Shown: in pieces, positions 8,254-48,653 of the stretch | Layout: every line of letters begins with the position of its first letter | How positions within the stretch are numbered: position 1 is the stretch's first letter | Source: a bacterium | GTDB lineage: Bacteria > Zhuqueibacterota > QNDG01 > JAFGCO01 | Direction of reading: 5' to 3' | Length of the DNA stretch: 64,000 bases | NCBI GenBank assembly: GCA_016932575.1 | Contig: JAFGCO010000029.1 | Location: 1 to 64,000 of the forward strand | Notes under the pieces: model-generated | Told to the model about the DNA's origin: nothing | Databases searched by the model: none | The model's input: only the letters and a program-made list of their open reading frames with translations | Position numbers and translations under genes: made by a program

Positions 8254-8277
8254 CGAATCATGCCCTTTCTTCAAAAA

Positions 8278-8916: not shown

Positions 8917-8923
8917 GATAATC

Positions 8924-8947
8924 TTGTGATAGTGATTACATTCACAA
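8924..8947 (-). promoter_or_regulatory. Rex operator (probable)
   Basis: An 18-bp dyad at 8930-8947 reads TAGTGATTACATTCACAA, against the Rex consensus TTGTGAAxxxxTTCACAA; the half-sites GTGA and TCACAA are intact. A further TTGTGA at 8924-8929 forms a wider dyad with the same TCACAA arm, so two half-site registers share one arm. It lies between the -10 element and the rex start codon, covering the expected transcription start. Binding would block initiation, giving autoregulation and operon control. Confidence 0.75.
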
Positions 8948-8948
8948 T

Positions 8949-8977
8949 ATAATACAAACTTTTTTTCCCGATTGCAA
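8949..8977 (-). promoter_or_regulatory. Sigma-70-type promoter of the rex operon
   Basis: On the minus strand TTGCAA (8977-8972) and TATTAT (8954-8949) are separated by exactly 17 bp. The Rex operator begins right after the -10. FCB primary sigma factors often use a different promoter consensus, so the match is suggestive only. Confidence 0.5.
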
Positions 8978-8985
8978 GATTTTTT

Positions 8986-9333: not shown

Positions 9334-9358
9334 GCCGCTTCTTTCCTTTCCATTTTTT

Positions 9359-10156: not shown

Positions 10157-10212
10157 AAATCAAATAACATTGCTGAAATTCTCATGTCCCATTCGATGTA
10201 AATCGAGTCATA

Positions 10213-10818: not shown

Positions 10819-10834
10819 GACCGGCCCCTTTTTT

Positions 10835-21892: not shown

Positions 21893-22055
21893 CATTATTA
21901 TTCTGCTCTTTGACCTGAACTCAGAAAACATCAGCTGAAAAGCAGTTCATTCGGAGGAACAGCATCATTACGCCCGATTCATCAAATCAATCCGCCGATA
22001 AAATCTGATGTCTTTTATTAAAACAAATTTGCCTCTTTTTACAGGAGAGACAACC

Positions 22056-25000
22056 ATGAAAAAAATATGGATGCATCTGTTTACTGGACTTTTCACAGGA
22101 ATCACAACATCTTGCCTTTTTGCTCAGATGGATGATTTGCATGGAGATGCGAAAGAAATTCGACGAGGATTGCATGACGGCAATCAGTTTCATGTCACGT
22201 TTTACAATGACGGCACATTCGGTCAGATTGACAGTGAAACGGATATTGCCGGCGAATGGCCTGCCGGCATGGGGCATCTGTATTTATTCGACGGCAACCC
22301 GTTTGTGGGTTCTGAAGTTATGGATAACGAAGGCGTATGGCGGCACATTGTCAGTACCGTTCGCAGTGTCAGTATTCAGTTTGCTACAGGCGACCAGGGC
22401 CCTTCAGGAGAGTGGTGGACCTTTCTGCCGCTGCCCGGATTTGCCAATCAAAACATGGATCTTGTGGCCATGTCGCATATTCCCGCCTCCTGGCCCTTTT
22501 TCTGGCCGGATAAATGCGGGGATGTGACAGATCCCTGCTGGTATAATTCCTGGAACGGTTACTTTGGCAAAAATCAGTTTAACGCGGACCAGGAAAGCTT
22601 TTTTGTCGCCGATGATTACAATAACCGGGAGTTCAACTTTTATCCCGATACTACTGATTTTTACCGGGGCGGTCTGGGGATACGCATGAGTGTCCGCGGA
22701 TTTCAATGGTCACTTCCATCAATTGAGGATGTGCTCTTCACAGTGTTCGATCTTGAAAATATCGGGACCTATGATCATTATAAAATGGTATTCGGGTATA
22801 AAGTCGGCAACACCATGGGAAGTACAACTGAAAATTACGAAAGTGAAGCGGATGATCGAGGATTTTATGATACAGATGAAGACCTGGTCTATTTATTTGA
22901 CAATAATGACACAGGAGCCGGCGGCTGGAGCCCGGTGGGATACTTCGGCAGTGCGTTTCTCGAATCACCCGGAAATCCAGTTGACGGCATTGACAATGAC
23001 AATGACGGGAAGGATGGTACGGGAATTGTCATAAAAGAGGATATGTTTCAGCCGCGAGAGCTTCAGGCAGGTGATGCCATCGTTCTTATTGATTATTCAA
23101 GCTATGAACGCATGATTTATACAATGAATTCTGATCCGATTTTAATTAACTTTCAAAATCGGCTATATGAATTTTCTCCGGGTGATGTGATAGAAGAAAT
23201 TCCGAATAATAGAATGGATGATAATCTCAACGGCCTGATTGACGAAAACAACGGAGAGGTTACCGGTGAGGGAGAGAATCAGGTGATGACTTATTTGTAT
23301 ACAGGACTCAAATGCATTGATTATTATACAGGAGAAGGCCGATACAATCCACTGATTGATGAACGGCGGGATGACAGCATAGACAATGATGGAGACTGGG
23401 ATGCATTGTTGGACGATGTGGGTGCGGACGGTATGGCCCATACAGGAGATACAGGAGAACACGACGGTCGGCCCACACCGGGAGAGCCCAATTTTGACAA
23501 AACCGATGTGCATGAATCCGACCAGATCGGGCTGACCAGTTTCAATCTGTATCACTGGGAAATGATTCCGCATGATGATGATGAAATTGTGTGGGACAAT
23601 CTCAAACCAGGATATTTTAATGCCAATCTTCAGAATGATAATATTGAATTGTTTTTCGGCTCCGGATATTTTTCAATGAAACCCGATCAGACAGAACGCA
23701 TATCCATGGCGCTGATGTGCGGTGTGTCTCTGAGTGATCTGATGGACAATAAAACCGCAGCCACCTCTGCGCTTCATCATAATTACCGGCTTCCCAAAAA
23801 ACCCGAAGTCCCGGTACTCATGGCTGTGGCGCATGATCATAAGGTCACACTCAACTGGAGCGATGTGGCCGAAGTCACCAAAGATCCGGTCACCGGATAC
23901 GACTTTGAAGGATACCGGATATACCGATCAGCAGAATCATCTTTTTTCGGCGATCCGGTTATCCAGTTCGATCTGAACAATGAATATGCAGGATATTCCC
24001 AGATCCCGGAAAACGGCTCCTATTTTTATCTTGGTGCAAACACGGGGCTTCAGCACAGCTGGGTTGATACCAATATTGAATACGGGATTAAATATTACTA
24101 TATCGTCACTTCCTATGATCATGGCAATCCTGATATGGGAATTGCTCCTGCTGAATGTTCGAAAAACGTATATACCGATGCATCGGGTCAGGTGTTTGTG
24201 GGTCAGAACGGTGCCGTGGTCATACCTGTGGAGCCCTCCGCACCAAATTACAGCATGTCTGTCCGGCCAATCAGCGGTGTGACGGATGGAACCGTATCTG
24301 CGGACATTGTGGATCCGGCCGCCATGAAAAAAGGGCATACCTATCATATCACTTTTGAAGATTCACTGGACCGATTTAATCTTTTCACAAAAAATTTTAC
24401 ATTAACCGATCTGACAGCCGGAGAAATCCTGATCAACAGATATTCTTTGCTCGATCAAATCACATATAGCCATGTACTCCAGGGATTCCGGCTATCTCTG
24501 AGAAACGCCGGTAACGGGATCCTTGAACTGAATCCGGATTCATCCGGCTGGAACAATCCGGGGATTATGCCTTACAATTTCAGACGTCCCGGCCTGGTAC
24601 GCGATCCCTATCAACCCACGGCCGCCGACTTTCAGATCATTTTCGATGAAGTGGGTATGGACACGTCTGTTTCCTTTTACAGAATGCACGAAGAACTGCC
24701 TGCCGTCCCTGTAAACTTTACAGTCATTAACCTCTCAACCGGAGTAAAAGTGAAATTTGCCTTCAGAGAGCGTGATCTCATTGATGAATGGGAAGCCGGG
24801 GAATTTACGGGATACAAGGCAGGCAGACAGAATAGATCTGACGAGATTATTTTTCTGACATCCGATTCACTCATCGCAAGCTGGCAGGTATCCTATATAA
24901 GAAGCGTGTCAGATACACTACAGGCCGGCCCGGGAGATATTCTGACCCTGAAGCTGACCAAACCGTTTCTGTCGCAGGATGTATTTGAATGGACCATCCC

Positions 25001-25310
25001 GAACGAACAAACGGTCTCAGTCAATACGGATGACAAAGCGATACCGGACCATTTCTCTCTTTCCCAGAATTATCCGAATCCCTTTAATCCCGTAACCACC
25101 ATTAAATACGACCTTGCCAGAATCACCCGGGTCACCTTAAAAATATTCAATTGTATGGGTCAGGAAGTCGGCACACTGGTTAAAACGGTTCAGCCTGCTG
25201 GAACCTATCAGGTGTCCTGGAATGCATCGAAAGTCTCTTCCGGTGTGTATTTCTATCAGATTCAGGCAGACACATACTCTGAGCGAAGAAAAATGCTGGT
25301 CATTAAATAA
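22056..25310 (+). CDS. Large secreted protein with fibronectin-III region and type IX sorting domain
   Basis: 1,084 residues from the ATG at 22056, preceded by ACAGGAGAG. Signal peptide ends near LFAQ. Middle: beta-rich, with repeated Asp/Asn loops like calcium-binding motifs (DGIDNDNDGKDG, DDSIDNDGDWD). Around residues 590-710 lies a fibronectin-III-like unit (PVLMAVAHDHKVTLNWSD). The last 80 residues are the Por/T9SS type A sorting domain: LSQNYPNPFNPVTTIKYDL, LKIFNCMGQEV and a final strand SERRKMLVIK. Thus it is exported by type IX secretion and probably anchored or released at the surface. The family recurs in Calditrichota/KSB1-like genomes; function unknown. Confidence 0.85.
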   Translation: MKKIWMHLFTGLFTGITTSCLFAQMDDLHGDAKEIRRGLHDGNQFHVTFYNDGTFGQIDSETDIAGEWPAGMGHLYLFDGNPFVGSEVMDNEGVWRHIVSTVRSVSIQFATGDQGPSGEWWTFLPLPGFANQNMDLVAMSHIPASWPFFWPDKCGDVTDPCWYNSWNGYFGKNQFNADQESFFVADDYNNREFNFYPDTTDFYRGGLGIRMSVRGFQWSLPSIEDVLFTVFDLENIGTYDHYKMVFGYKVGNTMGSTTENYESEADDRGFYDTDEDLVYLFDNNDTGAGGWSPVGYFGSAFLESPGNPVDGIDNDNDGKDGTGIVIKEDMFQPRELQAGDAIVLIDYSSYERMIYTMNSDPILINFQNRLYEFSPGDVIEEIPNNRMDDNLNGLIDENNGEVTGEGENQVMTYLYTGLKCIDYYTGEGRYNPLIDERRDDSIDNDGDWDALLDDVGADGMAHTGDTGEHDGRPTPGEPNFDKTDVHESDQIGLTSFNLYHWEMIPHDDDEIVWDNLKPGYFNANLQNDNIELFFGSGYFSMKPDQTERISMALMCGVSLSDLMDNKTAATSALHHNYRLPKKPEVPVLMAVAHDHKVTLNWSDVAEVTKDPVTGYDFEGYRIYRSAESSFFGDPVIQFDLNNEYAGYSQIPENGSYFYLGANTGLQHSWVDTNIEYGIKYYYIVTSYDHGNPDMGIAPAECSKNVYTDASGQVFVGQNGAVVIPVEPSAPNYSMSVRPISGVTDGTVSADIVDPAAMKKGHTYHITFEDSLDRFNLFTKNFTLTDLTAGEILINRYSLLDQITYSHVLQGFRLSLRNAGNGILELNPDSSGWNNPGIMPYNFRRPGLVRDPYQPTAADFQIIFDEVGMDTSVSFYRMHEELPAVPVNFTVINLSTGVKVKFAFRERDLIDEWEAGEFTGYKAGRQNRSDEIIFLTSDSLIASWQVSYIRSVSDTLQAGPGDILTLKLTKPFLSQDVFEWTIPNEQTVSVNTDDKAIPDHFSLSQNYPNPFNPVTTIKYDLARITRVTLKIFNCMGQEVGTLVKTVQPAGTYQVSWNASKVSSGVYFYQIQADTYSERRKMLVIK

Positions 25311-31058: not shown

Positions 31059-33494
31059 TTATCCCATAATCACCTCAACCTGATGCAGGCTTCCCGCTTT
31101 ATAAACAGGAAGAATGTTTCCATCATGAGGCTTTCCATCGATAGTGACCGTTTTAATTCCCTTCTGAATACCCGATGGATTTTTTATCGTGATATTATAG
31201 GTTGCGCCGCGAAAAATACGCTGAACATGAAACTCTTTCCAACTACCCGGAATACATGGATTAATCTGCAAACCATCGTAATTAGGTTTAATGCCAAGTA
31301 TATACTGCGTGATTGCAACATAGGTCCAGGCGGCAGTCCCAGTCAGCCAGGAATTTTTCGCTTCACCCGGTTTGAATGCATCCTTACCCGCGATCATCTG
31401 AGAGTAAACATACGGCTCTGTTTTATGCAAATCACTTATTTCTTCAAGGAAAGAGGGAGCAATTCTGGACCAGTAATCAAATGCCTGATTACCATTACCA
31501 ATTATTGTCTCTGCAATCATGATCCAGGGATTGTTGTGACAAAAAATTCCGGCATTTTCTTTGTAACCTTCCGGGTAGGAAGAAATTTCTCCGTATTTCA
31601 CTATGTACTTCGTAAACGCGGGATTATTCAGAACAATACCATATTCACAGGCAAGATATTTGTTAACGGATTCCAATGCAGCCTTCGCCCGTCCATCTTC
31701 AACACCACATCCGGCCATGATACAAAATCCCTGAGGCTCGATAAATATCTTCCCTTCTTCACATTCATCGCTTCCGACTTTTTCACCAAAATAATCATAA
31801 GCCCTGATAAACCATTGACCATCCCAGGCATGTTCATCGACGGCTTCTCTCATGGCTCTGATATGTTTTTGATACTCTCCGGCCAGATCTTTTTTCCCCA
31901 GAATCTTGCAGAGATTGATAAATTCCTGGCCGTATAAAATAAACATGGCTGCGATAAAAACAGATTCCGCTACACCGCCCTCTTTATTTTCAGTTGTTTG
32001 AAAAGATTCACCCGGGATCGTTGAAAAACAATTTAAATTCAGACAGTCATTCCAATCAGCACGGCCGATCAAAGGCAGTCCAAGTGGCCCCAGATTATTG
32101 ACAACATGCATAAACGATCGTCGAAGGTGCTCGAACAGCGTGTCTTTATGGGCCTCATTATTATCAAAGGGGACCTGCTCTTCGAGGATAGAAAGATCTC
32201 CGGTTTCCTTGATGTAGTCAGTCGTAGAAAGAATCAGCCAAAGAGGATCATCATTAAAATTACCACCGACATCGGCATTACCGCGTTTGGTCAGGGGCTG
32301 ATACTGATGCCAGGCACCCCCGTCGGGAAGCTGGGTAGCGGCGATATCAAGAATACGCTCCCTCGCCCGTTCAGGTACCTGATGAACAAAACCGATTAAA
32401 TCCTGATTAGAATCTCTGAAACCCATGCCCCGGCCAATCCCAGACTCAAAATATGAAGCTGATCGTGAAAAATTAAATGTGATCATGCACTGATATGCAT
32501 TCCAGATATTCACCATTCGATCAATGCGGGAATCGTGGGTTTTGACCTGATATTTCCCCAGCAGATTATCCCAGAAAGATTTTAACTCATGAAATGCCTT
32601 CTCAACATCTTGAACTTTTTGAAATTTTGCCATTACCGCTTCGGCCGGTTTTTTATTAATAACCTGATGCGAAACAAATTTCTGATCGACAGGATTTTCA
32701 GCGTACCCAAGAATAAAAATCAGATCACGGTTTTCACCTGGCGCAAGTTCAATATCGAGGCAATGCGACGCGATTGGATGCCAGCCATGAGCGACTGAGT
32801 TGCCGGCTTTTCCCTTCATCACTGCGTCCGGTCCGTCAAAGCCGTTGTAAAGCCCAATAAATGTTTCTCGATCCGTGTCAAAACCCGAAATAGGCGTATT
32901 CACCGAATAATAGGCATAATGATTCCTTCGCTCGCGGTATTCGGTTTTATGATAAATCGTGGAATCAATAATTTCCACCTGTCCGGTGGACAAATTGCGT
33001 TGGAAATTGGTCTGGTCATCCCAGGCGTCCCACAGACACCACTCAATGAACGAAAATAATGTGAATTTTCTGGATCGATCGGTGTGGTTTGTTAACTTGA
33101 CCTTTTGAACTTCTCCCCAGGTGTCTAAGGGGACCATAAATAATATTTCAGCTTCAAGACCATTCCGCTGGCCATTGATGATGGTGTATCCGAGACCATG
33201 ACGGCATGAATATCGGTCTAATTCAGCTTTGACCGGTTTCCAGCCAGGAGACCATACATCTCCTCCCTCATTAATATAAAAGTATTTACCCCCGTCATCC
33301 ATCGGAACATTATTATAACGAAATCGGGTAATCCGCCGTAAACGGGCATCTTTATAAAAACTGTACCCGCCGGCAGTATTTGAAATAATTGAAAAAAAAT
33401 CCTGATTGCCTAAAAAATTTATCCATGGCCATGGAGTTTGTGGCGAAGTAATTACATATTCCCGGTTTTCATCATCAAAGTGACCAAATTTCAT
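31059..33494 (-). CDS. Cellobiose phosphorylase (GH94)
   Basis: 811 residues, the usual size. GH94 enzymes split cellobiose with phosphate to give glucose 1-phosphate and glucose, saving ATP. The N-terminal beta-sandwich (1-290) and the alpha6/alpha6 barrel (about 310-770) are both complete. Substrate-binding [10 protein letters not shown] is at 356-365 and the general acid is Asp483 in [10 protein letters not shown]. Other conserved blocks include [23 protein letters not shown] and [10 protein letters not shown]. No signal peptide: cytoplasmic. RBS AGAGGAGAC before the ATG. Works logically with GH5 and an oligosaccharide importer; chitobiose or cellodextrin phosphorylase activity is less likely but not excluded. 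Confidence 0.93.
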
Positions 33495-33986: not shown

Positions 33987-35558
33987 TCATTTTAAGCTTT
34001 CACCAATAATTGTTAATAATTTCTCAAAAGTATATGGCTTTTGTAAATATGGAAATCCCTTATCTTTAATCATTTTCCATTGAGACTTTTGATCTGTATA
34101 ACCACTGGTCATCAATACTTTCATTTTAGGATTTTTCTTTAACAGATTTTCCACAAGTTTAATCCCATTTGTATTGGGCAAAACCACATCACTGAATATC
34201 AATTGAAAATCACCCCTCTCCTTCTCAAAAACATCCATGGCTTCCTGGTCATCCATGGCTACAAAAACCTGATATCCGCCCTTTTCCAGGGCTCTCTTGG
34301 CAAAATGCCTGACACTGGCTTCGTCTTCAATCACCAGAATACGCTCACCTTCCCCTTTTCGAATATTTAAAGGCAAATCCAAACTTTCTTTTCGGGTATG
34401 TGCTGTAGATGAGAGAGGCAGGTATACATTAAAAATGGATCCCTTTCCTTTTTCACTCTTCACCTCAATCCAGCCTTTATGCTGCTGAATAATCCCATAA
34501 ACAACCGAAAGTCCGAGACCGCTTCCTTTGCCAAATTCTTTTGTACTGTAAAATGGCTCAAATATATGTTCAATGACTTTCTGATCCATTCCGCTGCCTG
34601 TATCTGCCACAGAAAAAAAAACAAACTGATCCGGATACGCATTGCTGATGTTCTTTACATCCGGTTGATTCAATTGTATTTTTTCCGTTCGAATCGTTAC
34701 TTTTCCGCCCTCCAGCATGGCATCTCTTGCATTGACCACCAAATTCATAATCATTTGTTCGATAGATGTCTGATCTGCAAACACGATCAGTATTTCCGGA
34801 GTAAGGTCATAACGAACTTCAATATCTTCCCCAATAATCCGATGAAGCAGACCCAGCAGGTTTTCAATTGTTTTATTAAGATCGATATAATTAAATTCCA
34901 TGGGCTGGCGACGGCTGAACAGTAACAATTGCCGGGTTAAATTCATTGCCCGCTCTGTACAAATCTGAATCTCCTTTATATCATGATACAACTGCGTATC
35001 CTTATCGATCTGGTCAAACGACATATCGGCATATCCACGAATGGCGGTCAGTAAATTATTAAAATCATGGGCCACACCACCTGTCAGCCGACCAATCGCT
35101 TCCATTTTCTGAGACTGAATAAGCTGTTCTTCAATCCTTTTTTTATCTTCCTCGGCCTGTTTCTTTTTTCGATGCATCTCGACTTCACGTAATTCGCGTT
35201 CGATAGCCGGAATCAATCTTGTAAGACTGTCTTTCATGATATAATCATGCGCGCCAGCTTTCATGGCAGTCACTGCGGTTTCTTCCCCAATTGCTCCGGA
35301 AACAATAATAAAAGGAACATCCAAATGACGTTCCTTAATAATCTGCAAGGCATCCGGAGCGCTGAATCGCGGCATAAGATAATCAGCAATGATGACTTCC
35401 CAGGTTTCTTTATCCAGAGCAGCAATCATGGCATCACGCGTATACACACGCTTATATTCAGGGCTATATCCGCCCTGTTGCAGAGCATGCACCAGCAGCA
35501 ATGCATCATCCTCTGAATCTTCGACAATCAACACACGCAATGGTTTACGACTCATCAT
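33987..35558 (-). CDS. Receiver-histidine kinase-receiver hybrid (REC-HisKA-HATPase-REC)
   Basis: 523 residues, soluble. N-terminal receiver (residues 7-125) with Asp59 in IIADYLMP; HisKA with [14 protein letters not shown]; HATPase with [16 protein letters not shown] and [14 protein letters not shown]-terminal receiver from 405 with Asp457 in [13 protein letters not shown] and the switch Thr/Lys. The H-box and [10 protein letters not shown] place it with NtrB/FixL-like (HPK4) kinases. A receiver-driven kinase without a sensor domain can pass phosphate from the large sensors to another target. It begins in the ATGA overlap with a remnant kinase end, with AGGAG upstream. Confidence 0.93.
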
Positions 35559-35785
35559 GAACTCCTGACTTTTGGCGGTGCATTGTTTAACAAAGTAAAA
35601 TAAAATGCTGCGCCTCGATCAATTTCAACTTCCGCCCAGATCCTCCATTTATGTCTGTGGGCTATTATTTTTACTGTGGCCAGCCCGATTCCGGTTCCTT
35701 TATAGTCCGGATGCTGACACCGAAAAACTTCAACCAAATTGAGGGAATAATTATTTGCGTTTTCAATAACGGTTCTTTCATTCAA
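35555..35785 (-). pseudogene. Remnant of a histidine kinase C-terminal ATPase domain
   Basis: A 76-codon frame. Residues 18-68 carry [46 protein letters not shown], the last quarter of a HATPase_c domain, and match the ends of both large sensor kinases (for example [22 protein letters not shown] in the adjacent one). HisKA, the N-box and the DxGxG motif are absent, and a catalytic-region Gly-Gly has become KW. It sits directly between the end of the first sensor kinase and the start of the hybrid kinase. Best explained as what is left of a deleted fourth sensor kinase or a partial tandem duplication. It may still be translated and couple to the hybrid gene. Confidence 0.7.
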
Positions 35786-35797
35786 AGTCCCCGAAAA

Positions 35798-38700
35798 TCA
35801 AGATGAATTTGTTCGGCTGTCATTTTTCTTTGAGGGGAACGTAAAAAAGAATGTAGCGCCTTTTTCAATCTGAGCTTCTGCCCAAATTTCACCCCCATGC
35901 CTTTGAACAATCCGTTTGACTGTAGCCAGGCCAATTCCCGTACCTTGAAAATCAAGATGCTGACGCTGAAACACATCAAACAGCCTGTCCGTATATTGCA
36001 TATCGAAACCAATACCATTGTCTCTAATATAATAAATTGTTTTATTCCCTTGTTTCTTACAGCCGAATTCAATTTTCGCTTTGGCTGTTGTTGAGGTAAA
36101 TTTCCAGGCGTTATCAATTAAATTATTCAACATCACACGCAGCAGTGTGGCATCACCGAAGATGATCATACCCGGCATCACCTTGAACGCCACGGATCGA
36201 TCCGGTGCAACATTCTTGTATTCATTGAAAATGGACTTTGACATTTTGCTTATATTCACATCTTTTAAATTCATCTCACTCCGAATCAAACGTGACAGCT
36301 TCAACAAACCATCGATCAAACGTCCCATCTGCTGACTGGCATGCTGAATTCGTTTCAGATAATCTTTCCCTGTATCATCCAGCTTGTTTATATAATCATC
36401 CAGCAGTGCTTGACTGAACCCGTTCATACTCCGAAGCGGTGCACGAAGATCGTGCGATACAGAATAGGCAAAGGCTTCCAGTTCACGATTGGCAGTTAAA
36501 AGATCCGCCGTTCGCTCTTCGACTTTACGTTCCAAATCTTCATTCAGGGCTCGTATTTCTTTCTGTGCCCTTTTCAGCTTTGCAAGCTGGTTCTGTGCCT
36601 TTTTCTCTGCACATCTGCGCTCATTCACCTGTATCTGAAGCTGATCATTGACTGCCTGCAATTGTTTGTTCTGCCGTGTGAAATGATGCGTCCTGATCCG
36701 AAAAACGACCGCCCCTGCAAGCAGTATGGTCATAATCACCAGCAGACGAAACCACAGGGTTTGTATAAACGGGGGTGTCACAATAATTCGGAGCGATGCG
36801 CCTTTCATGTTCCAGATGCCATGATTATTTGATCCGCGTATTTTTAAAGTGTAGGTTCCCGGATCCAGGTTTGTAAAAGTAACAGACCGCTTCTTTTCGA
36901 TGTCATGCCAATCGTGATCAAAACCTTCCAGAAAATAGGCATATTGATTGTCCTCGCTTGACAGAAAATTTAAAGCGGCAAACTCAAACGTCAGCACCGA
37001 CTGATCATATGCCAGCGTAATCTCATTGGTTTCTGAAATTGGTTTCTGAAGAACAGATCCGTTTTTATCAGGCCAAACCGGCCGGTTATTGATAAAAAAG
37101 TTGCTGAACACCACTGGCGGAATAAATGTATTGCTTTTCACTTCATCCGGAAAAAATGAAGTGACTCCCCGAATCCCTCCAAAAAAAAGTTCGCCTGAAG
37201 GATCTGCAAAATACGCATTATAATTGAACTGATTGCATTGCAATCCGTCATCAGAATCATAATTTTTAAACCGTTCGGTTGCCGGATCAAACCGGGAGAG
37301 TCCCTGATTGGTGCTCAGCCACAGGTTCCCTTTCAGATCCTCCAAAATTCCATAGATTGTATTATTCGCCAATCCGTCATTCTCATTATAGGCCACAAAC
37401 GTACCGGAGTCACGATCCATCAAATTCAAGCCGCCTCCAAGTGTTCCTATCCAGAATCGGCCCCGGTTATCTTCAAATATCGATTGAATAAATGAATTGC
37501 TCAAACTTGTTGAATCCCGCGGATTATGCACATATTGAACAAATGATTCGGATTCGGGATCGAAACGGTTTAATCCACAAAATGTGCCGATCCAAATCAC
37601 ACCGGTCCGATCTTCATATATGACTTTACAATCAAAATGACTGAGGCTGGTTGAATCACCTTCATTAAAGTGATACTGGTCAAAACGATCATCAGACCGC
37701 CTTAAAACACTCACACCAATATGGGTTGCACACCACAAATCACCATTTCGATCTTCCACAATTGAGTAAATATCATTATTGGAAATACTGCCTGGATCAC
37801 TCGGATTGTGACAATAATATCTGAACCCCCCCTCGGCCGGATTATAATAATTCAATCCGCCGTTAAACGTACCAAACCATAAAATGCCATGTTTATCTTT
37901 AAGAATCACTTTAATATTGTTGGAATGGATGCTATAAGGATTTTCGGGATCATACATAAAATAGGTGTACTGCCCTGTTTGATGACCAAGCAAATTAATG
38001 CCCCCGGTTTCGGTACCAAACCACAGGTCGCCTTCATTATGCCGATAGATTGCATAAACAACCGGGCTGTTTAAAAAACGGGAATCATTTGAGAGGAAGC
38101 TGTAATGATGAAAAGCAGCCTTATAGGGACTGTAATGATTCACGCCTCCCCTTGTGCCAATCCACACATCTCCAATTTCATCTTGAAAAATACACTGAAC
38201 CGACTGGTGATTTAAACTGTACTGCCCTTCAGTGCCGGGTTTATGTAAAGTCATATCTTCCAGATTTTTGTCAATGATATAAAGCCCCTGTCGGCTACCT
38301 ATCCACATATTCCCGTCAGTATCTTCAAAGAAAGCACGTACTGTATAAATAAGTTCTCCAGTCGGACCTCTCAAATGCCGGAGATGTCCGTTCTCAGGAT
38401 TATATATATATAATCCTCTCATATTGGTCCCTACCCATAATCTTCCCTGTTTATCTTCGGTAATTGAATACACACTGAGACCATCAGGCTTGAATTTTGA
38501 GAAAGCCCGAATGTGTTTAATTTTACCCGTTTGCATATTCATGCAATCCACGCCGGCTCCAAGAATACCAATCCATAACTGATTCTGCGAATCAATATGG
38601 AGTGCCTGAATCTCATTTCCTGCAATTGAGGACACATTTGTGGAATCATGAAAATAGTGTTGAAAACATTGGGTATCGAAATCATAAAAATTCAGTCCGT

Positions 38701-39163
38701 TTCGCGTTGCGATCCAGAGTCCCTGATCAGATTTAACAACTTGATTGATATTATTGCAAGTCAGACCGCATGAATCATCCGGATGATACTGATAGTGAAT
38801 AAATGAATCCTTTTCAGGATTATAGATATTTAATCCACCCGCATCTGTGCCGATCCAAATGCGATTCAGATGGTCTTCCTGAATATCACGGATCAGGTTA
38901 TAACTGAGACTGCCTGAATTTTCATTGTCATGCTGATAAACAGTAAATTCGTATCCGTTATAACGATTTAATCCATCATTCGTCCCAAACCATAAATATC
39001 CCCGGCTATCTTTAAAAATCACATTCACTTTGCTGTGTGACAATCCATTATCAATGGTCAGATGATCAAACCGCAAATGCACCGGCTTTGTATTGCCCAT
39101 CGAATGGATGAACAGAAACAAGATAATTTGATAAACAGGATATGACCTTCTTTTCAGGGACAT
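35798..39163 (-). CDS. Beta-propeller (Reg_prop)/YYY sensor histidine kinase, sensor 1
   Basis: 1,121 residues. Signal or anchor sequence, then fourteen Reg_prop-type motifs of the form W-[IFL]-G-T-x-x-G-[LV]-N-x-[FY] (residues about 25-690), enough for two seven-bladed propellers. A YYY immunoglobulin-like domain (about 745-810, with YAYFLEGFDHDWHDI and FTNLDPGTYTLKIRGSNNHG) and a membrane helix (about 820-838) follow, then a coiled coil, HisKA (SVSHDLRAPLRSM) and HATPase ([25 protein letters not shown]). Periplasmic part and domain order resemble Bacteroides hybrid two-component sensors of oligosaccharides, but the AraC and receiver parts are missing. Ligand likely an oligosaccharide; inferred. 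Confidence 0.93.
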   Translation of the reverse strand: MSLKRRSYPVYQIILFLFIHSMGNTKPVHLRFDHLTIDNGLSHSKVNVIFKDSRGYLWFGTNDGLNRYNGYEFTVYQHDNENSGSLSYNLIRDIQEDHLNRIWIGTDAGGLNIYNPEKDSFIHYQYHPDDSCGLTCNNINQVVKSDQGLWIATRNGLNFYDFDTQCFQHYFHDSTNVSSIAGNEIQALHIDSQNQLWIGILGAGVDCMNMQTGKIKHIRAFSKFKPDGLSVYSITEDKQGRLWVGTNMRGLYIYNPENGHLRHLRGPTGELIYTVRAFFEDTDGNMWIGSRQGLYIIDKNLEDMTLHKPGTEGQYSLNHQSVQCIFQDEIGDVWIGTRGGVNHYSPYKAAFHHYSFLSNDSRFLNSPVVYAIYRHNEGDLWFGTETGGINLLGHQTGQYTYFMYDPENPYSIHSNNIKVILKDKHGILWFGTFNGGLNYYNPAEGGFRYYCHNPSDPGSISNNDIYSIVEDRNGDLWCATHIGVSVLRRSDDRFDQYHFNEGDSTSLSHFDCKVIYEDRTGVIWIGTFCGLNRFDPESESFVQYVHNPRDSTSLSNSFIQSIFEDNRGRFWIGTLGGGLNLMDRDSGTFVAYNENDGLANNTIYGILEDLKGNLWLSTNQGLSRFDPATERFKNYDSDDGLQCNQFNYNAYFADPSGELFFGGIRGVTSFFPDEVKSNTFIPPVVFSNFFINNRPVWPDKNGSVLQKPISETNEITLAYDQSVLTFEFAALNFLSSEDNQYAYFLEGFDHDWHDIEKKRSVTFTNLDPGTYTLKIRGSNNHGIWNMKGASLRIIVTPPFIQTLWFRLLVIMTILLAGAVVFRIRTHHFTRQNKQLQAVNDQLQIQVNERRCAEKKAQNQLAKLKRAQKEIRALNEDLERKVEERTADLLTANRELEAFAYSVSHDLRAPLRSMNGFSQALLDDYINKLDDTGKDYLKRIQHASQQMGRLIDGLLKLSRLIRSEMNLKDVNISKMSKSIFNEYKNVAPDRSVAFKVMPGMIIFGDATLLRVMLNNLIDNAWKFTSTTAKAKIEFGCKKQGNKTIYYIRDNGIGFDMQYTDRLFDVFQRQHLDFQGTGIGLATVKRIVQRHGGEIWAEAQIEKGATFFFTFPSKKNDSRTNSS

Positions 39164-39232
39164 AAAAAATACCTGCTTTCTTGTTCACTGACAAAATATT
39201 TTTTTTAACCAATATAATGATCAAGTTCCTGT

Positions 39233-39679
39233 TTAATGTCCTTTAGGTACTTCATTCAGCAAGGCCCAATATAAAGCCAGCTGCTCCACAGCCTGCTGAA
39301 ACTGAATAAAATCGACTGGTTTTCGTACATAGCTGTTTGCACCCAGCTTGTAACTTTCGATAAGGTCCCGCTCCTCGTCTGAAGACGTTAAAATCACCAC
39401 AGGCAGCCACTTTGTTCGCTCGTCTGCACGAATGCGCCTCAGTACTTCAAGCCCGTTTACCTTAGGCAATTTAATATCGAGCATAACGATCACAGGCATG
39501 ACATTCAAATCGCGTTTTGCATACTCGCCTTCACCAAAAAGATAATCCAGTGCTTCCGAACCGTCACGGACCACTATCACATCATTAAGAATGTGATGCT
39601 TTTTCAATGTCCGGATTGTCAGTTCCTCATCATCGGGATTGTCTTCAACCAATAAAATACTTTTATTGTCCGCCATCAT
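39233..39679 (-). CDS. Stand-alone receiver domain (Rcp1-type response regulator)
   Basis: 148 residues, one receiver only. Acidic pocket in LLVEDNPDD, phospho-acceptor Asp68 in VIVMLDIKLPKVNG, switch residues in VVILTSSDEERD and Lys in YVRKPVDF. The insertion GEGEYAKRDLNVM before the Asp is the mark of Rcp1/CheY-like regulators that pair with phytochrome-type and other HisKA kinases. No output domain. It lies 15 bp after sensor kinase 2 and 69 bp before sensor kinase 1, so it may take phosphate from either or shuttle between them and the hybrid kinase. Confidence 0.92.
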   Translation of the reverse strand: MMADNKSILLVEDNPDDEELTIRTLKKHHILNDVIVVRDGSEALDYLFGEGEYAKRDLNVMPVIVMLDIKLPKVNGLEVLRRIRADERTKWLPVVILTSSDEERDLIESYKLGANSYVRKPVDFIQFQQAVEQLALYWALLNEVPKGH

Positions 39680-39694
39680 TCTCCTCCATTTTGA

Positions 39695-42600
39695 TTAATG
39701 CGTTTTTTTAGTATTTAGGGTAAAATAAAAGCTTGCTCCCTTTCCTACCTTCCCTTCTGCCCAGACACGCCCCCCATGCCTCTGTACAATCCGTTTTACA
39801 GTGGCCAGTCCGATACCTGTGCCTTCATAATCTTCATGGTGCCTCTGAAATACATCGAACAGATGGCTTGCATAACTCATGTCAAAGCCAATACCGTTAT
39901 CTCGAAAATAATAGACTGTCTGTCCATTCTTTTCGTCGCATCCAAAAATAATTTTTGCGTCTGATACCTTTGATGTAAATTTCCATGCATTGTCAATCAA
40001 ATTCGTCAGAAGCACTCTGATCAGCGATGGATCACTTTCGGTCATCATACCTTCCTGAATTTCCAGCTTCATGGATCGATCTGGCATGATTTGCCGATAC
40101 TCTTCTGCAATGGATCGCGCCATATCGCTGATATTCACTGATCGGACATGCATTTCATTCCGGGCAAGACGGGACAATTTCAGCAAACCATCAATGAGAT
40201 GACTCATGCGCTGACTGGCATTGCTGATACGCTGTAAATAATCAATCCCCCTTTCATCCAGTTTTTTCTGATAGTCATCAATCAGGACCTGGCTGAAGCC
40301 GTCCATGCTTCTGAGGGGTGTTCGAAGATCATGTGAGACAGAATAACTGAATGACTCCAGATCTTCATTGGATTGTTTTAACGCTTCGGCATACTTTTGG
40401 ATAGACATTTTTTGCTGTTCCAGTTCTTGATTGGCGACTTGTAAATCCTTGGTCCGCTCAGTCACCTGATGTTCCAGGGTTTTTCCCTGTTTTTTAATCT
40501 GAAAAAATCTATATTCAAAAATACCGAATATCACTGCCGCTAAAAAAATTATCATCAATATCCGAAACCACCAGCACTGCCAAAACGGCGGTTGAATAAT
40601 AATACAGACCGAAGCACCTGTTTCGTTCCAAACTCCGTCATTGTTAGTTCCCTTCACATAAAAGGTATATTTCCCCGGATTGATATTGGTATACGCCGCG
40701 CTTCGTCTGTTCCCGACATAACGCCATGACGCATCAAATCCCTCCAGCTTATACGCATACTGATTCTTTTCAGGCATTGTAAAATCTACGACAGCAAAAT
40801 CAAATGAAAAACTCGATTGCTGGTAAGACAAATGTACTTCCCTGGTTTCTGAAATATGGCTTTGAAGCGGAGAATTCTCCATGCCAACCAGCATGGGTTT
40901 GTTAAATATATAAAAATTTGTGATCAGTATTTGCGGCGGTGTTGTATTCTTTGACAATTTTTCAGGATAAACACAGTTAAATCCCTTTGTTGTCCCCAGA
41001 TAGACAATCCCGTTTCCCGCAGTAAATGCACTCTTTCGATTGAATTCATTGCTTTGAAAGCCGTCTGCCTTGGTAAAAATCTGGCTTTCCTCTGTTCTGG
41101 TGTTAAAACGGGCCACCCCCCTGTTGGTTGTCACCCAGAGTATGCCTGTTTTATCAAATGTCAATCCGACAATTCGATTGTCCGGCAAACCATCTTCCAT
41201 GTAATAACGTTTGAAAACTCTGGCTTGTGTGTCAAATCGATTCAATCCGATTTCTGTGCCGATCCAGAGCGTCGTATCATTCTCAAAGACAAGCGTGTGC
41301 GCCGAATTATCACTGATCGTTTTCGGGTCACCCGGATTATGGGATAATGATACAAATCGCCCCTTTTCCGGTTTAAATATACAAAATCCTGAAGCAGTGC
41401 CTATATACAGGCTCCCATCGGATCCTTCTTTGATATCATGAATCAGGTTATGGACCAATCCGCTGTTGTTTGTGTTGTACGATGTAAATGCTTGAGTTCT
41501 GCGATTAAAATGAATCAATCCCGTTCCAAAACTGCCAAGCCATAAATCGCCATGAATAGACTTCAATATACATTTAATATGGTCTTCCTGTATACCGCTG
41601 TTCAGGGTTGTAAACGATTGAAATCGTCCGGTCTTTTGATTCAATCGACACAAGCCTCCGGCCCATGTACCCACCCATATCTGATGGTGGGAATCTTCAA
41701 TAATATCTAAAACAGCGTCACTCGTTAAATTCGTTGTCTTTGAAGAATAATGATAAAACCGGTTGTTTTCTTGGTCAAAACGATTCAACCCCCCGCCATC
41801 TGTTCCTATCCATAGTTGACCCCGATGATCTTCCATAAAATCAGTGACCACATTATGACTGAGACTTCTGGATGCACCCGGAATATGTTGATAATGTAAA
41901 ATCGCTTCACTGTTTTTCAGGGAACGGTTGATTCCCCCCGAAAAAGTCCCAATCCACAAATTGTCTCTGTTATCCTGATAGATAGCATGAATAGATTCAT
42001 TGTTCAGGCTGTTGGGGACATAATCATCATGACGGTAATGCCAAAAATTGTCATGAACGGAATCATACAGGCTGAGACCGCCGTTTTCTGTGCCAATCCA
42101 CAAATGATTGCCCCCATCCACAAATAAGGTGAGAATATTATCGACTGTCAGACTATGCTCATCGCCCGGATCATGCATATAATGATCGATGATAAACATA
42201 TCCGATGCATTCAGGCCGATTCGGAATAATCCGCGATTGCTGGCAAGCCAGATCCTGCCATCCATATCTTCGACGATATAATATATAAGGACATTTGATA
42301 AAAGACCGCTTCCTTCATACTGAAGGTTGACGGATTGAAATGTTGTATCATCATTGAACAGATACAGTCCGGTTTCAGTACTGACCCACATATTGTTTCT
42401 GCTGTCTATATACACGTATTTCACATTGTTATCACGGAGGCTTTGCGGATCATTCGGATGATGTGTATATCTCGTCAGTGTATTCTGTTGATAATGAAAG
42501 CACAGCAGACCGATATCCGTACCCAGCCAGAGATTGCCCAGCGTGTCTTCTGCGATCGAACACAGATTAAAATTGATGCCATACAGGGGTGATGCATGAT

Positions 42601-43021
42601 CGTACATGGGATTTATGAAATGATCTTTTCCCCAGTCATATAAGCTTATGCCTCGTGCAGTGCCGATCCACAGATTATTATGCCGATCCTCATATAAGCA
42701 ATAAACAAGATTATGCAACAGACTCGTCTGATCGCCCACAATATTTTGAAATATTTTAAAATCCATTCCGTCATACAGATTCAGACCATAATACGTACCA
42801 ATCCACATCAGCCCCTTATGATCCTGAATCATGGATGTTATTGACGATGAAGACAATCCTTCATCCGGCGTGATATGCTTGAATTGTAATTGTATCGGCT
42901 GACTTTCGATATTCAGCACGAATATAAAAAAGAACATAACTCGTGTGACGAAACGAAGCAAAATTCTTGTTTTTCTAAATAGATAATTCATAACATTACT
43001 GATCATTGAGAATACACGCAT
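39695..43021 (-). CDS. Beta-propeller (Reg_prop)/YYY sensor histidine kinase, sensor 2
   Basis: 1,108 residues, same layout as sensor 1. Fourteen Reg_prop motifs, first GLMWIGTYYGLNLYDG and last GIVYLGTTKGFNCVYP, a YYY domain (YAYKLEGFDASWRYVGNRRSAAYTNINPGKYTFYVKG), one membrane helix (FRILMIIFLAAVIFGIFEY), a coiled coil of about 60 residues, HisKA with SYSVSHDLRTPLRSMDGFSQVLIDDY and HATPase with NLIDNAWKFTSK and DNGIGFDM. The kinase half is very similar to sensor 1, the propeller half much less so, which suggests a different ligand with shared downstream partners. No clear RBS for any of the Met codons at 43021, 43006 or 42991; the shorter starts also leave a signal sequence. Confidence 0.92.
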   Translation of the reverse strand: MRVFSMISNVMNYLFRKTRILLRFVTRVMFFFIFVLNIESQPIQLQFKHITPDEGLSSSSITSMIQDHKGLMWIGTYYGLNLYDGMDFKIFQNIVGDQTSLLHNLVYCLYEDRHNNLWIGTARGISLYDWGKDHFINPMYDHASPLYGINFNLCSIAEDTLGNLWLGTDIGLLCFHYQQNTLTRYTHHPNDPQSLRDNNVKYVYIDSRNNMWVSTETGLYLFNDDTTFQSVNLQYEGSGLLSNVLIYYIVEDMDGRIWLASNRGLFRIGLNASDMFIIDHYMHDPGDEHSLTVDNILTLFVDGGNHLWIGTENGGLSLYDSVHDNFWHYRHDDYVPNSLNNESIHAIYQDNRDNLWIGTFSGGINRSLKNSEAILHYQHIPGASRSLSHNVVTDFMEDHRGQLWIGTDGGGLNRFDQENNRFYHYSSKTTNLTSDAVLDIIEDSHHQIWVGTWAGGLCRLNQKTGRFQSFTTLNSGIQEDHIKCILKSIHGDLWLGSFGTGLIHFNRRTQAFTSYNTNNSGLVHNLIHDIKEGSDGSLYIGTASGFCIFKPEKGRFVSLSHNPGDPKTISDNSAHTLVFENDTTLWIGTEIGLNRFDTQARVFKRYYMEDGLPDNRIVGLTFDKTGILWVTTNRGVARFNTRTEESQIFTKADGFQSNEFNRKSAFTAGNGIVYLGTTKGFNCVYPEKLSKNTTPPQILITNFYIFNKPMLVGMENSPLQSHISETREVHLSYQQSSFSFDFAVVDFTMPEKNQYAYKLEGFDASWRYVGNRRSAAYTNINPGKYTFYVKGTNNDGVWNETGASVCIIIQPPFWQCWWFRILMIIFLAAVIFGIFEYRFFQIKKQGKTLEHQVTERTKDLQVANQELEQQKMSIQKYAEALKQSNEDLESFSYSVSHDLRTPLRSMDGFSQVLIDDYQKKLDERGIDYLQRISNASQRMSHLIDGLLKLSRLARNEMHVRSVNISDMARSIAEEYRQIMPDRSMKLEIQEGMMTESDPSLIRVLLTNLIDNAWKFTSKVSDAKIIFGCDEKNGQTVYYFRDNGIGFDMSYASHLFDVFQRHHEDYEGTGIGLATVKRIVQRHGGRVWAEGKVGKGASFYFTLNTKKTH

Positions 43022-43097
43022 TTAATTTCAATCACCGGCCAGGCTATATGGATCATCTTTTCTTACCTTTCAGAAGGAATGATTTTCATATAACATT

Positions 43098-46000
43098 CTA
43101 CTTTCTTTTTAAGGCCAGTGCCAGTTTGGACAAATCTTCAATTAAAAAGCCCACTTCGCTTGAACTGGCCTTGATCGTTCTCACAATTTCCTGATTTTTC
43201 TGGTTGACAGAAGCCACATTATCCATGGCATGCTGTACCTGATAGGAAAACTCCTGCATTTGATTGACCTTATCAGCAATAGAATGCAAACGTTCCATTT
43301 CTTCTTCCACAGCTGTATAAATTTGATCGAGGGTTACCCTGCCTTCACCGGCGATCCTGGCCGACTCTTTAACATCATCCAGCCCCTGTTTGATCACCTT
43401 TTCAATTTTAGATAAATCCGATTGCAATTCGGATATGGACTTTGAAATATCCACGGTTGATTTTGATGTGGTCCTGGCAAGATCACGGATTTCCTGGGCC
43501 ACTACCATAAATCCTTTTCCAAAATCGCCGGCTTTTGTGGCCTCTATCAATGCATTCAGGGCAAGAACATTCACCCGCGAAGCAACATCATCAATGAACA
43601 GGATAATTTCATCAATATGCGCGGAATATTGCATCATGCTTTTCATAATATCCCAGCTGGCGTAGACGTTTTTTTCTATATTTTCCATATAATCAAGTGT
43701 CGCCTGTATGGACTGGGTTCCCGATGCAACGGCCTGAACGGTTTTCTCAGCGGCAACACTGCTTTTTTTGGTTTCATAGGTTACATTGCGAATGGTGGAA
43801 AGAAACGACTCGACGATTGATTTTGTTTTATCGATGAAATTCGTTTGAGACATCGATCCGTCTTTCATATCATTCATAGCCCTGTCCACCTGCATAAAAA
43901 CCTGGCTCACCAGACTCGAATGAAATACCACGGTCTTTCCTGTCTCTGAAAGTTTTTCATAAGAAGCTTCAACCTGCTTTTTCTGCTGTTCCACTTCGAT
44001 GGTGCGTTCCCGTACCTCCATCTCCAGTTTTCTTCGATGGGTGTGATGGCTTCTAACCCGCCATTTATATAACATAAAAAGGATAAGGCCGATCAGCAGT
44101 GCAACACATAAACGGAACCACCATGTTTCCCAGAAGGGGGGTTCAATGATAATATCCACAGATACCCCTGTTTCATTCCAAACGCCATCATTGTTGGACG
44201 CCATAACGATAAATGAATACTCTCCGGGATCGAGATTCGTATAGGTGGCGGAGCGTTTTGTTCCGACATAATTCCAGTCGTCGAAATCGGATCCGGCCAG
44301 ACGATAAGCGTACTGATTCTTTTCAGGAAAAATGTAGTTCAAAGCGGCAAATTCAAAAGAAATCACATTTTGTTTATATGACAACCGGATATGCTTGACT
44401 TCACTGATATGGGCATTTAATGGAGAATTATCCCCTATAGGAACCGGTCTGTTGAAAATCTGAAAATCAGTAAAAACAATGGGCGGCACATACGTGTTGT
44501 GAGTTAATTCTGATGGATGGAATACATTAAATCCGTTAACCCCTCCAAAATAAATATCTCCATGACTGCTTTTAAAATGGCTGCATTGATAAAATTCATT
44601 TCCCTGCAGACCATCCGAGATATCATAGTTTTTAAATTCCCCGGTTTTTGGATCATACCGGGAGATCCCCTTATTCGTACTGAGCCAGAGATTTCCATGA
44701 TCATCCTCACGAAGCCCTTTGATTGCATCATTGGGCAAGCCGTCTTTGATATAAAATCGGGTGAATGTTTCTGTATCCCGATGGAACCGGTTTAATCCAC
44801 CGGTCGTGCCAACCCATAATGTTGAATCACTGGCTTCGAGAATGGTCAATACCCAGCCCTTGCTGATACTGGTGGTATCTTCTTCATCATGCCGGAAGGT
44901 CACAATACTCCGAGTTTCAGGATCGAGACAGTTGAGCCCCAGATCCCCGCCAATCCAAAGCTTTCCAAATGCATCCTCGATGACCACCCGAATGTGGTCG
45001 TCCGTAAGCTGGCTGTTCTGAATCGTAAAATTGATAAATCGGTTATTATCAAATTCAAGGCAGCTTACACCACCCCAGAAGGCACCGATCCACAATCGGC
45101 CCTTCCTGTCTTCGATGATACTGAAAACATTATTGCTGCTTAATCCGCTGTTTTCACGTGTATATTGCCTAGACCGTCCGGTTTTACGGTCAAACAAGTT
45201 CAAACCACCGGCCCAGGTACCTATCCAGCATCGGCCACGGCTGTCTTCGAATATCGAAAGCACCGAATTGCTGCTTAACTGACTGTTCCGGGTATCATAA
45301 TGATTAAATGTTCCGTCTTCTTCATCAAAAATATTCAGTCCTCCGCCATCTGTTCCAATCCATAAATCACCTTGAGAATCTTCAAAAAAGGATGTCACAG
45401 AATTGTGGCTCAGACTTTGATCGTTCCCGGGATTATGTTGATAGTGCCTGAATCCTCCGCCAAACTGCGGCAGCAGATTGATACCTCCGGCAAAGGTCCC
45501 TATCCAGAAGTTGCCTGTCCGGTCCTCGTAAATCGACCAGATAGAATTGTGGCTGAGACTTTTCTTATCAAACACGTCGGATGTGTAATGCTGAAAAGCA
45601 CCCGTCTCTTTATTAAAAACGTTTAGTCCCTCATTTTCAGTTCCGATCCATAAACGATTCTGCTGATCCTCCCGGATGGTAAATACAGCATTACCGCATA
45701 AACTGTTTGCATTCCAGGTATTATGACGGTAACGGGATTGTTTAAAATTGCCCAGCGAATCGATGCGAACCCGAATAAGTCCATCGCCGTGCGTACAGAT
45801 CCAGATATCTCCGTCCTGGTCCTCCAGCACACTTCGGATGATAAAATCACCAAACCGTTTAAACCTGACGAATTGCTGGTTATTGACACGGTATAAATCC
45901 ACATGACCGTGCCATGAGCCAATCCAGACATAATCTCTGCTGTCACAATAAACTGTATATAGATCGTTGCTGCTAAGGCTGTTTGGATCATCCGGTATTT

Positions 46001-46517
46001 GTTTAAACCGAACAAATCGGTCTTTTTCTCGATCATACCGGTTCAGGCCACCGCCATTGGTACCGATCCATAAATCTCCTTTTTTATCTTCGCTGATTGA
46101 CATGACCTGATTGTGACTTAAGCTGCTGTCATTATCGGCGTCATGCCTGTAATGCCGGAATGTATTGGCAGTGCTGTGAAAGAGATCCAGACCGCTCTCG
46201 GTTCCTACCCACAAATTTTTCTGGCTGTCTTCAAACAGCGCGTAAATGGAATTGCTGCTGATGCTGTTTGAATCGCTGGGATGGTGCCGGTAAACAGTAA
46301 ACTGATATCCATCATACCGATTCAAACCATCCTGTGTACCGAACCACATGAATCCATTGTGGTCCTGCAGGATACAAGTGATGGTGGATTGGGATAGCCC
46401 GCGTTCCGTCGTAAGATGCTCAAACTGAAGATGGTTGTTCTTTGGATAAAGAAGCAACGAAAATGAAAATTCGACAAACAGTACAAGAAACCAGTGAAAT
46501 CTTACCATATACCGCAT
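43098..46517 (-). CDS. Beta-propeller (Reg_prop)/YYY sensor with MCP-type signalling domain, sensor 3
   Basis: 1,139 residues. Signal sequence, fourteen Reg_prop motifs (first [16 protein letters not shown], last [16 protein letters not shown]), YYY domain ([30 protein letters not shown]) and a membrane helix ([16 protein letters not shown]). In place of a kinase, residues about 845-1139 form a long helical hairpin. Its tip reads [43 protein letters not shown], the conserved MCP signalling tip that contacts CheA and CheW. No HAMP domain is recognised between membrane and signalling helices. It is the first gene of the cluster. No cheA or cheW gene occurs in the window. Sensor is secure; chemotaxis or other Che-type output is inferred. 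Confidence 0.93.
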   Translation of the reverse strand: [1139 protein letters not shown]

Positions 46518-47051: not shown

Positions 47052-48653
47052 TCAGGTACCCTCGCCGCCGTTACTGACAGCCAGTTCAACAGGTTTATAG
47101 CCTCCCAGTTTTCGAAACCAGAAAATCAGAATCAGAAAACTCACTGCCATAATCAAAGGAACAATGGCCACCACAGTCATGGCATATCGTTTTGACTGGT
47201 TGACCACAGTTTCCACAAGGGTCTGTTCTTTTTTATCCAGGGTTTGCACTTCTTCTGGATCGACAGCCCTGTAGTGCCCGTAAATGGACTGTTTCTCCTG
47301 GGTAACGACCTGTTTATAGACCACACTGTTTTTATTCATCAACTGATGGTCGGTATGCTTATCCTGAATTAATCCCAAAAGCGGTGCGCCCAGAATTCCG
47401 ACGCCCAGCATGCCGATACCGCTGATGGAATTCAGGGTAACCGCACCTCCTTTCGGAAACCGCTCAGCCACAATTCCCAGCATGGTCGGCCAGAAAAAAG
47501 TCTGCCCTATGGCATACACTGTAGCAGCCAGAATAATCCAAGCGCCATGAGCGTTACTGATAAAAACCAGGCCGATGGCTGCGGCCAGAGAGCTGGAGGC
47601 CATCAATCCCAGAGGCCCGATACGTTTCACAACGGGACCCACATTAAACCGCAGAACCATCATGACAAGAGAAGAATACACCAGTACCCAGCCGCCGCTG
47701 AGTGAAAAATTTGATCGCATAACCGGATTCATCAGCTCTTTGATCCATGTATCTGTTCCCAATTCCGTGGTTGCCAGGGGAAGCATGAGCAGAACCAGTA
47801 CGATGAACAATCCGCGTCCGAATGACCGGATATAAACGCCAAGTGGAATTATGGCTATGCATGTGATCAGCAGGGCTGTTCCGAGCATGAGGCTGTCAGA
47901 CCAGCCGCTGAAAAGACTGCTGATATTTGCCAGGATATTCATGATTTCGCGTGTAAACAGAAGAATCACAATGGCAAATCCGATGATTCCCATCTCTTTG
48001 AGCATGTCTTTAAAAGAAACACCCGCCTTCACCCGCTCGCTCACAGGGAACCTGGACCGGATTAACATGGCACCATAGATCAGTGCCGGTATAAGAATCA
48101 TACCGAATGTCCAGCGCCAACTCAGGCCATTTGTAAAATACCGGCCAATGATGCCGCCTTCGCTCATGGCCAGAGAAATGAGCGATCCAAGCAAAATACC
48201 GCCCGCCCATCCGGCATGAAGAATGTTGAGCCATTTGGTTTTGGCCTGGGTGAAGAGGGAGGCCACAGCCGGATTAATAACCGCTTCAACGGTTCCGTTG
48301 CCGACTGCAACAATGAGATTGCCAAAAAACAGCCACCAAAAACTGGGGCCGATCAGGATCATGATTGTGGCGATGATATGGCAGGCGAAGGCAAAAAAGA
48401 GACCGGTTTTATATCCGATCCTGTCAATAATCAGACTGAATCCGATAATGCCAAGCGCGAAAGGCCACATGCCCGCTCCCATCAGCCAGCCCTTTTCAGT
48501 TTCACTGAGATCGAACTCGAATCCGATCGCCCCGATTATTTGGGCCCGAACAGCAAAGAAAAATGCTGTTGTCACCAAAGAAATAAAACACATCCAGAAC
48601 AGCCAGCGGTTTTTTTTAAGCACTGCATTCTCAGCTTGTTGTTCATCAGTCAT
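47052..48653 (-). CDS. Major facilitator superfamily transporter (sugar-type)
   Basis: 533 residues, twelve predicted helices. MFS marks: the first cytoplasmic loop GFSLIIDRIGYKTG and helix pattern of sugar/nucleoside MFS proteins such as FucP-like carriers. Between helices 11 and 12 is an unusual soluble segment of about 65 residues (roughly 425-490: KHTDHQLMNKNSVVYKQVVTQ and so on), not present in ordinary members. RBS AGAGGAGGG precedes the ATG. It follows the TIM-barrel isomerase by 248 bp on the same strand, so a sugar or inositol-type import and catabolism pair is plausible. Substrate unknown. Confidence 0.85.
   Translation of the reverse strand: MTDEQQAENAVLKKNRWLFWMCFISLVTTAFFFAVRAQIIGAIGFEFDLSETEKGWLMGAGMWPFALGIIGFSLIIDRIGYKTGLFFAFACHIIATIMILIGPSFWWLFFGNLIVAVGNGTVEAVINPAVASLFTQAKTKWLNILHAGWAGGILLGSLISLAMSEGGIIGRYFTNGLSWRWTFGMILIPALIYGAMLIRSRFPVSERVKAGVSFKDMLKEMGIIGFAIVILLFTREIMNILANISSLFSGWSDSLMLGTALLITCIAIIPLGVYIRSFGRGLFIVLVLLMLPLATTELGTDTWIKELMNPVMRSNFSLSGGWVLVYSSLVMMVLRFNVGPVVKRIGPLGLMASSSLAAAIGLVFISNAHGAWIILAATVYAIGQTFFWPTMLGIVAERFPKGGAVTLNSISGIGMLGVGILGAPLLGLIQDKHTDHQLMNKNSVVYKQVVTQEKQSIYGHYRAVDPEEVQTLDKKEQTLVETVVNQSKRYAMTVVAIVPLIMAVSFLILIFWFRKLGGYKPVELAVSNGGEGT

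Follow-up and report, generated by a model that had tools for sequence, protein, structure and literature searches.

Propeller-sensor gene array

The window, i.e., the whole 64,000-nucleotide stretch of DNA analyzed here, belongs to the draft genome of an uncultured bacterium (G000; 4.41 Mb, 72 contigs, 94.5% complete). Its sigma factor is closest to that of a Calditrichia MAG (84%), followed by those of Melioribacteraceae and Kapabacteria, which as a single gene gives a hint of affinity. Three large ORFs with Reg_prop and Y_Y_Y domains (1121, 1108, and 1139 aa; the last is P0001) were identified together with two smaller regulatory genes. The features of the region are as follows:

47052..48653, minus strand: MFS transporter, upstream neighbor of the array (Pfam); its link to the array is presumed
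43098..46517, minus strand: P0001, Reg_prop/Y_Y_Y chemoreceptor with double propeller, YYY domain, one transmembrane helix, no HAMP, and an MCP signaling hairpin (Pfam, 14 motifs, PDB matches, AlphaFold)
39695..43021, minus strand: P0002, Reg_prop/Y_Y_Y histidine kinase, HisKA + HATPase_c (Pfam, motif count)
39233..39679, minus strand: P0004, single-domain response regulator (lone REC) with no output domain, between the two kinases (Pfam)
35798..39163, minus strand: P0003, Reg_prop/Y_Y_Y histidine kinase, HisKA + HATPase_c (Pfam, motif count)
33987..35558, minus strand: P0005, REC-HisKA-HATPase-REC hybrid without propellers, a conserved cassette partner (Pfam, homology)
31059..33494, minus strand: P0007, GH94 cellobiose phosphorylase, next gene downstream (Pfam; full-length match to 3qde, 1335 bits)

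The array proper (35798-46517, minus strand) is transcribed in the order P0001, P0002, P0004, P0003, with 76, 15, and 69 bases between successive genes; P0005 follows after 239 bases. An earlier note on this DNA had drawn the array of propeller sensors from 33987 to 46517; the span is right for 35798-46517, but 33987-35558 encodes the propeller-less hybrid. The note had also described three paralogues with 14 Reg_prop motifs, a YYY domain, and one membrane helix each, two ending in HisKA kinases and one in a chemoreceptor domain, and this description was borne out. Counted directly by their W/Y-x-G motif, the blades number exactly 14 in each of P0001-P0003 and are 41-51 residues apart. Hydropathy analysis revealed one strongly hydrophobic C-terminal helix in each; P0001 and P0002 have, in addition, a signal-type hydrophobic stretch at the N-terminus. 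The output detected by Pfam was MCPsignal in P0001 and only HisKA and HATPase_c, with no fused REC or AraC, in P0002 and P0003; none of the three combines HisKA, HATPase, REC, and AraC in a single chain. Pfam searches identified no DNA-binding regulator in the cassette, the regulators there being the lone REC and the REC-HK-REC protein. Elsewhere in the window (22008-25310), a large, probably secreted protein carries a C-terminal sorting-type tail (NYPNPFNP...) suggestive of type IX secretion.

The kinase part of the array has counterparts at other loci. L130 has the same gene order but no MCP: two Reg_prop kinases, then a REC with 69% identity to P0004, and a REC-HK-REC protein with 63% identity to P0005. 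At L266, a REC with 73% identity to P0004 comes after a Reg_prop kinase. These arrangements indicate that the kinase and lone REC, with or without the hybrid, represent a conserved module. We infer that the MCP paralogue was added to this module here, rather than lost elsewhere. Two further Reg_prop proteins (L048:5408-8665 and 8756-11968) have FlgD_ig-like C-termini and no kinase; they are apparently secreted rather than signaling proteins.

Domain structure of P0001

The P0001 protein could be divided into the following parts:

44127..46442, minus strand: ectodomain, residues 26-797, 14 blades + YYY (motif count, AlphaFold, Foldseek)
44070..44126, minus strand: transmembrane helix, residues 798-816 (hydropathy)
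43968..44060, minus strand: "V.ERT" coiled-coil linker, residues 820-850, where kinase homology stops (pairwise comparison; same junction in a relative)
43206..43751, minus strand: MCPsignal domain, residues 923-1104 (Pfam, genome-wide search)

In a PDB sequence search, residues 6-798 matched the BT4663 structure (4a2l; E 8e-141), which was also ranked first by Foldseek for the P0001 model (777 columns aligned, TM up to 0.92 by target length). The AlphaFold model is all-beta up to residue 791, followed by a helix (799-852) formed by membrane segment and linker, and by a long antiparallel hairpin of two helices (864-995 and 1002-1138) with a turn between them; pLDDT was mostly >85 in the propellers and mostly about 46-66 in the hairpin. 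The MCPsignal match scored 98 bits (E 5e-28; Pfam cut-off 34.6), and the MCP part aligned with the Thermotoga maritima receptor 2ch7 over 250 residues without gaps. Based on these scores and the modeled hairpin, a chance match to the MCP domain was ruled out.

The hairpin core (LALNA.IEA..AG..G.GF.VVA) is intact, but the flank is atypical, with ASRVN instead of the AxQTN (AxQTNLLALN) of most MCPs. Other MCPs of the same class, including sister MCPs with periplasmic-binding-protein (PBP)-type sensors, possess a similarly atypical hairpin. All eight MCPs found in a genome-wide search, P0001 included, fill the signaling-domain model to the same length, which makes a shared array possible. No CheR/CheB methylation consensus was recognized by motif pattern in P0001 or in any other MCP of the genome; since the motif is missing from every one of them, the pattern is uninformative.

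P0001 thus resembles two known families. Like the hybrid two-component systems of Bacteroides (BT4663, BT3049, BT4673), a sensor kind by which gut bacteria perceive sugars, it has two seven-bladed Reg_prop propellers, a Y_Y_Y domain, and a single transmembrane helix; unlike them, it has an MCP output and no kinase, receiver, or AraC domain, and P0002 and P0003 also differ from them in lacking fused REC and AraC. With MCPs such as that of T. maritima it shares the MCPsignal domain and the long antiparallel hairpin; however, its sensor is a double propeller plus YYY of about 770 residues, there is no HAMP, the one transmembrane helix is C-terminal, and the hairpin flank is atypical. Reg_prop proteins of Xanthomonas reportedly couple the sensor to c-di-GMP (second-messenger) output and not to an MCP.

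Origin of the P0001 halves

The ectodomains of P0001, P0002, and P0003 are 37-39% identical in pairwise comparisons, and the nearest ectodomain to that of P0001 (48%) belongs not to a kinase of the window but to one from another genome, G002. The earlier claim that the same ectodomain is wired to two outputs is therefore overstated; a recent ectodomain common to the three window sensors is unsupported, and their ligands may differ. In the ectodomain tree, where MCP-bearing and kinase-bearing proteins are intermixed, P0001 groups among Reg_prop kinases. Its MCP half groups with Peripla_BP_4 MCPs (SH-aLRT 97). By these two placements, P0001 is a chimera whose halves differ in parentage.

The closest kin of its signaling domain are thus the Peripla_BP_4 MCPs of its own order, whose sensor is instead a pair of periplasmic-binding-protein-like domains, intracellular by topology. 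Four such MCPs of this genome (L054:4028-6508, L055:5468-7942, and L056:5317-7689 and 7686-10097) have two N-terminal transmembrane helices followed by two Peripla_BP_4-like sugar-binding domains and the MCP domain; with no transmembrane segment between the latter, the binding domains would be cytoplasmic.

A cleaner case than that of the window was found in genome G067, in which an MCP protein and the adjoining hybrid kinase are 64% identical along 870 residues, the similarity ending at an R-E-R-T coiled coil. By sequence comparison this pair is a clear recent output swap.

Distribution of Reg_prop/MCP fusions

The fusion was identified in 15 proteins from 10 genomes of several phyla, 13 of them Pfam-checked for both domains. 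Within the phylum of this bacterium (82 genomes), the genomes with fusions are G000 (two copies), G002, G008, G011, G067 (two copies), and G058. Beyond it they were detected in a Gemmatimonadetes MAG (L094), a Melioribacteraceae MAG (L122), one Kapabacteria MAG with three copies (L105, L174, L175), and an uncultured Carboxylicivirga with two (L178, L179). For L174 and L175, which are outside the Pfam-checked set, MCPsignal was assigned from the search match and the propellers from motif counts. Y_Y_Y was undetected by Pfam in the G058 fusion (L234); its ectodomain is very divergent and lies on a long branch, and its placement in the tree was not relied on. A profile search of 395 genomes from the phylum that includes G102, read from profile matches alone and scoring four candidates per genome, added at least nine full-length matches in six genomes, which is a lower bound. 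Uniqueness of the fusion to this genome is ruled out by these copies, and the architecture, as defined by its domain matches, is uncommon but recurrent. No propellers were present in the long MCPs from Flammeovirga and Flexithrix, which were therefore rejected as further fusions. The earlier note had called the fusion protein next to its kinase twins a striking arrangement; this is to be toned down, since the fusion recurs in several phyla, but no description of a fusion of Reg_prop with MCPsignal or chemotaxis was found in the open-access literature, to which the search was confined. Both modules are known; their combination, the repeated origin at one junction, and the pairing with kinase twins appear to be undescribed in that literature.

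The second fusion of the genome, P0015 (1158 aa, contig C49), is 44% identical to P0001 over its whole length, which argues for a maintained function. It adjoins another Reg_prop/YYY ORF broken off by the contig end.

In a tree of 83 MCP domains, propeller MCPs appeared in several places, with seven changes, at least three of them forced by strongly supported branches. The trees were made by a quick method and include some long branches; a single origin of all propeller MCPs was very strongly rejected (AU p 1.3e-38), as was a single clade of the fusions of this order with those of G067 and G058 (AU p 3e-108). Fusions of the order form one clade (support 97) within the Peripla_BP_4 class, and the clade of P0001 is kept in four genomes of the order; the MCP class of the G067 fusions is another one, shorter and canonical in its hairpin. 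Judged by tree topology, such fusions arose independently several times. Two further observations concern MCP domains: an ORF of G067 (L230:993-3062, contig C314) encodes two MCP signaling domains and adjoins a multi-CheW-domain protein, and the Kapabacteria MAG of L105 (G103; 4.6 Mb) has 46 MCPsignal matches and no FlhA.

Chemosensory and pilus genes

The earlier note had named cheA and cheW as genes whose absence would count against a Che-type role. A complete Che cluster was found on contig C62, ruling out that the genome has no Che system. The gene order is RR, CheW, CheR-TPR, CheW, MCP with HAMP, Hpt, CheA (Hpt-HATPase-CheW-REC), CheB, and REC-GAF, and the only three CheW-domain proteins of the genome all lie in this cluster; the draft, at 94.5% completeness, may lack a further Che system. 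PilQ and PilT (PilT model 461 bits, cut-off 319) are encoded upstream, and PilB-, PilC-, PilM-, pilin-, and prepilin-peptidase-type genes farther upstream. The order PilQ-PilT-TrxB-Trx-RR-CheW-CheR-CheW-MCP-Hpt-CheA-CheB is kept in G008, G002, G003, and G007 as far as the examined stretches reach. PilT is separated from the Che genes by genes of the thioredoxin reductase and thioredoxin types (L042:6388-9072 on C62), an order-wide feature. FlhA, the single marker by which a flagellum was judged, was not found in G000. Among nine other fusion genomes tested, CheW was present in all nine and FlhA was missing from six.

Type IV pilus genes next to a Che cluster, with no FlhA, are reminiscent of Pil-Chp type systems, from which this one differs in the Hpt-HATPase-CheW-REC organization of CheA and a separate Hpt gene. 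On this combination, the array probably serves pilus-driven or other surface behavior. The hairpin of the MCP at the Che locus (AEQSNLLAVN) differs both from AxQTNLLALN and from P0001; given the ASRVN flank of P0001, co-assembly with the same CheA and CheW is uncertain.

Proposed function and alternatives

On balance we slightly favor P0001 as an extracellular glycan sensor, perhaps for cello-oligosaccharide, that feeds a pilus-linked Che array, with P0002 and P0003 feeding a separate REC phosphorelay. The ectodomain would bind a periplasmic oligosaccharide. The YYY module would then shift the single transmembrane helix, as in the signaling mechanism that a 2012 study is said to have proposed for BT4663. 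The signal would cross this helix and the V.ERT coiled coil into the HAMP-less hairpin, which would regulate, via CheW, the only known CheA of the genome and bias pilus-driven surface behavior. P0002 and P0003 would signal separately from Che, with the lone REC and the REC-HK-REC protein as their partners. For the ligand, the downstream cellobiose phosphorylase, the MFS transporter, and the GH130, GH2-type, and MalK-like genes near the propeller MCP of G002 hint, by context, at beta-glycan oligosaccharides; the cellobiose phosphorylase next to the array makes cello-oligosaccharide the preferred guess. The earlier note had envisaged combined control of genes and of motility or surface behavior. 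The surface link is plausible from the Che genes beside PilQ-PilT and the missing FlhA; the gene-control arm is doubtful, as the cassette has no DNA-binding regulator. The mostly solitary occurrence of the fusion gene in other genomes, at a distance from kinase twins, counts against the favored scheme.

Several other explanations were considered. The propeller MCP may work in the Che array while the array has a non-pilus output, e.g., a second messenger or gene expression, as in Che systems of alternative cellular function. We regard this as rather unlikely: FlhA is missing from most fusion genomes, and the Che cluster includes RR and REC-GAF genes of unassigned output plus the separate Hpt protein, but the Che genes keep their synteny with PilQ, PilT, and further pilus genes. 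That P0001 bypasses CheA altogether, as a decaying or decoy paralogue, by sequestering ligand, or in mixed oligomers with the kinases, would fit the atypical flank, the lack of HAMP, and the unrecognizable methylation motif; however, the 1139-aa ORF and the tip core are preserved, the clade is conserved in the order, hairpins of this type also occur in the PBP-type sister MCPs, and CheW accompanies the fusion in all genomes tested, making this reading improbable.

It is somewhat probable, on the other hand, that the window sensors bind different glycans and are separate sensors rather than one input with two outputs, a reading compatible with the favored scheme. The low identity of their ectodomains and the nearest relative of P0001 in another genome point this way; the operon-like run, the single cellobiose phosphorylase neighbor, and the 64% identical pair of G067, which demonstrates that recent shared-ectodomain pairs arise, speak against it. 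Less probably, duplication of a giant glycan sensor followed by exchange of its tail, always at the same junction, may be a recurrent event in bacteria, such that a phosphorelay and a (pilus-linked) chemosensory array read one extracellular glycan signal side by side.

The favored role of P0001 would connect polysaccharide sensing with surface behavior in uncultured, seemingly flagellum-less bacteria, and under the tail-swap reading foraging movement and metabolism would be placed under one sensor type. That fusions arose independently and more than once at this coiled-coil junction suggests a signal, passed through YYY, transmembrane helix, and coiled coil, that is interchangeable between histidine kinases and chemoreceptors. 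If so, the poorly known HTCS transmembrane mechanism would become testable via chemotaxis read-outs.
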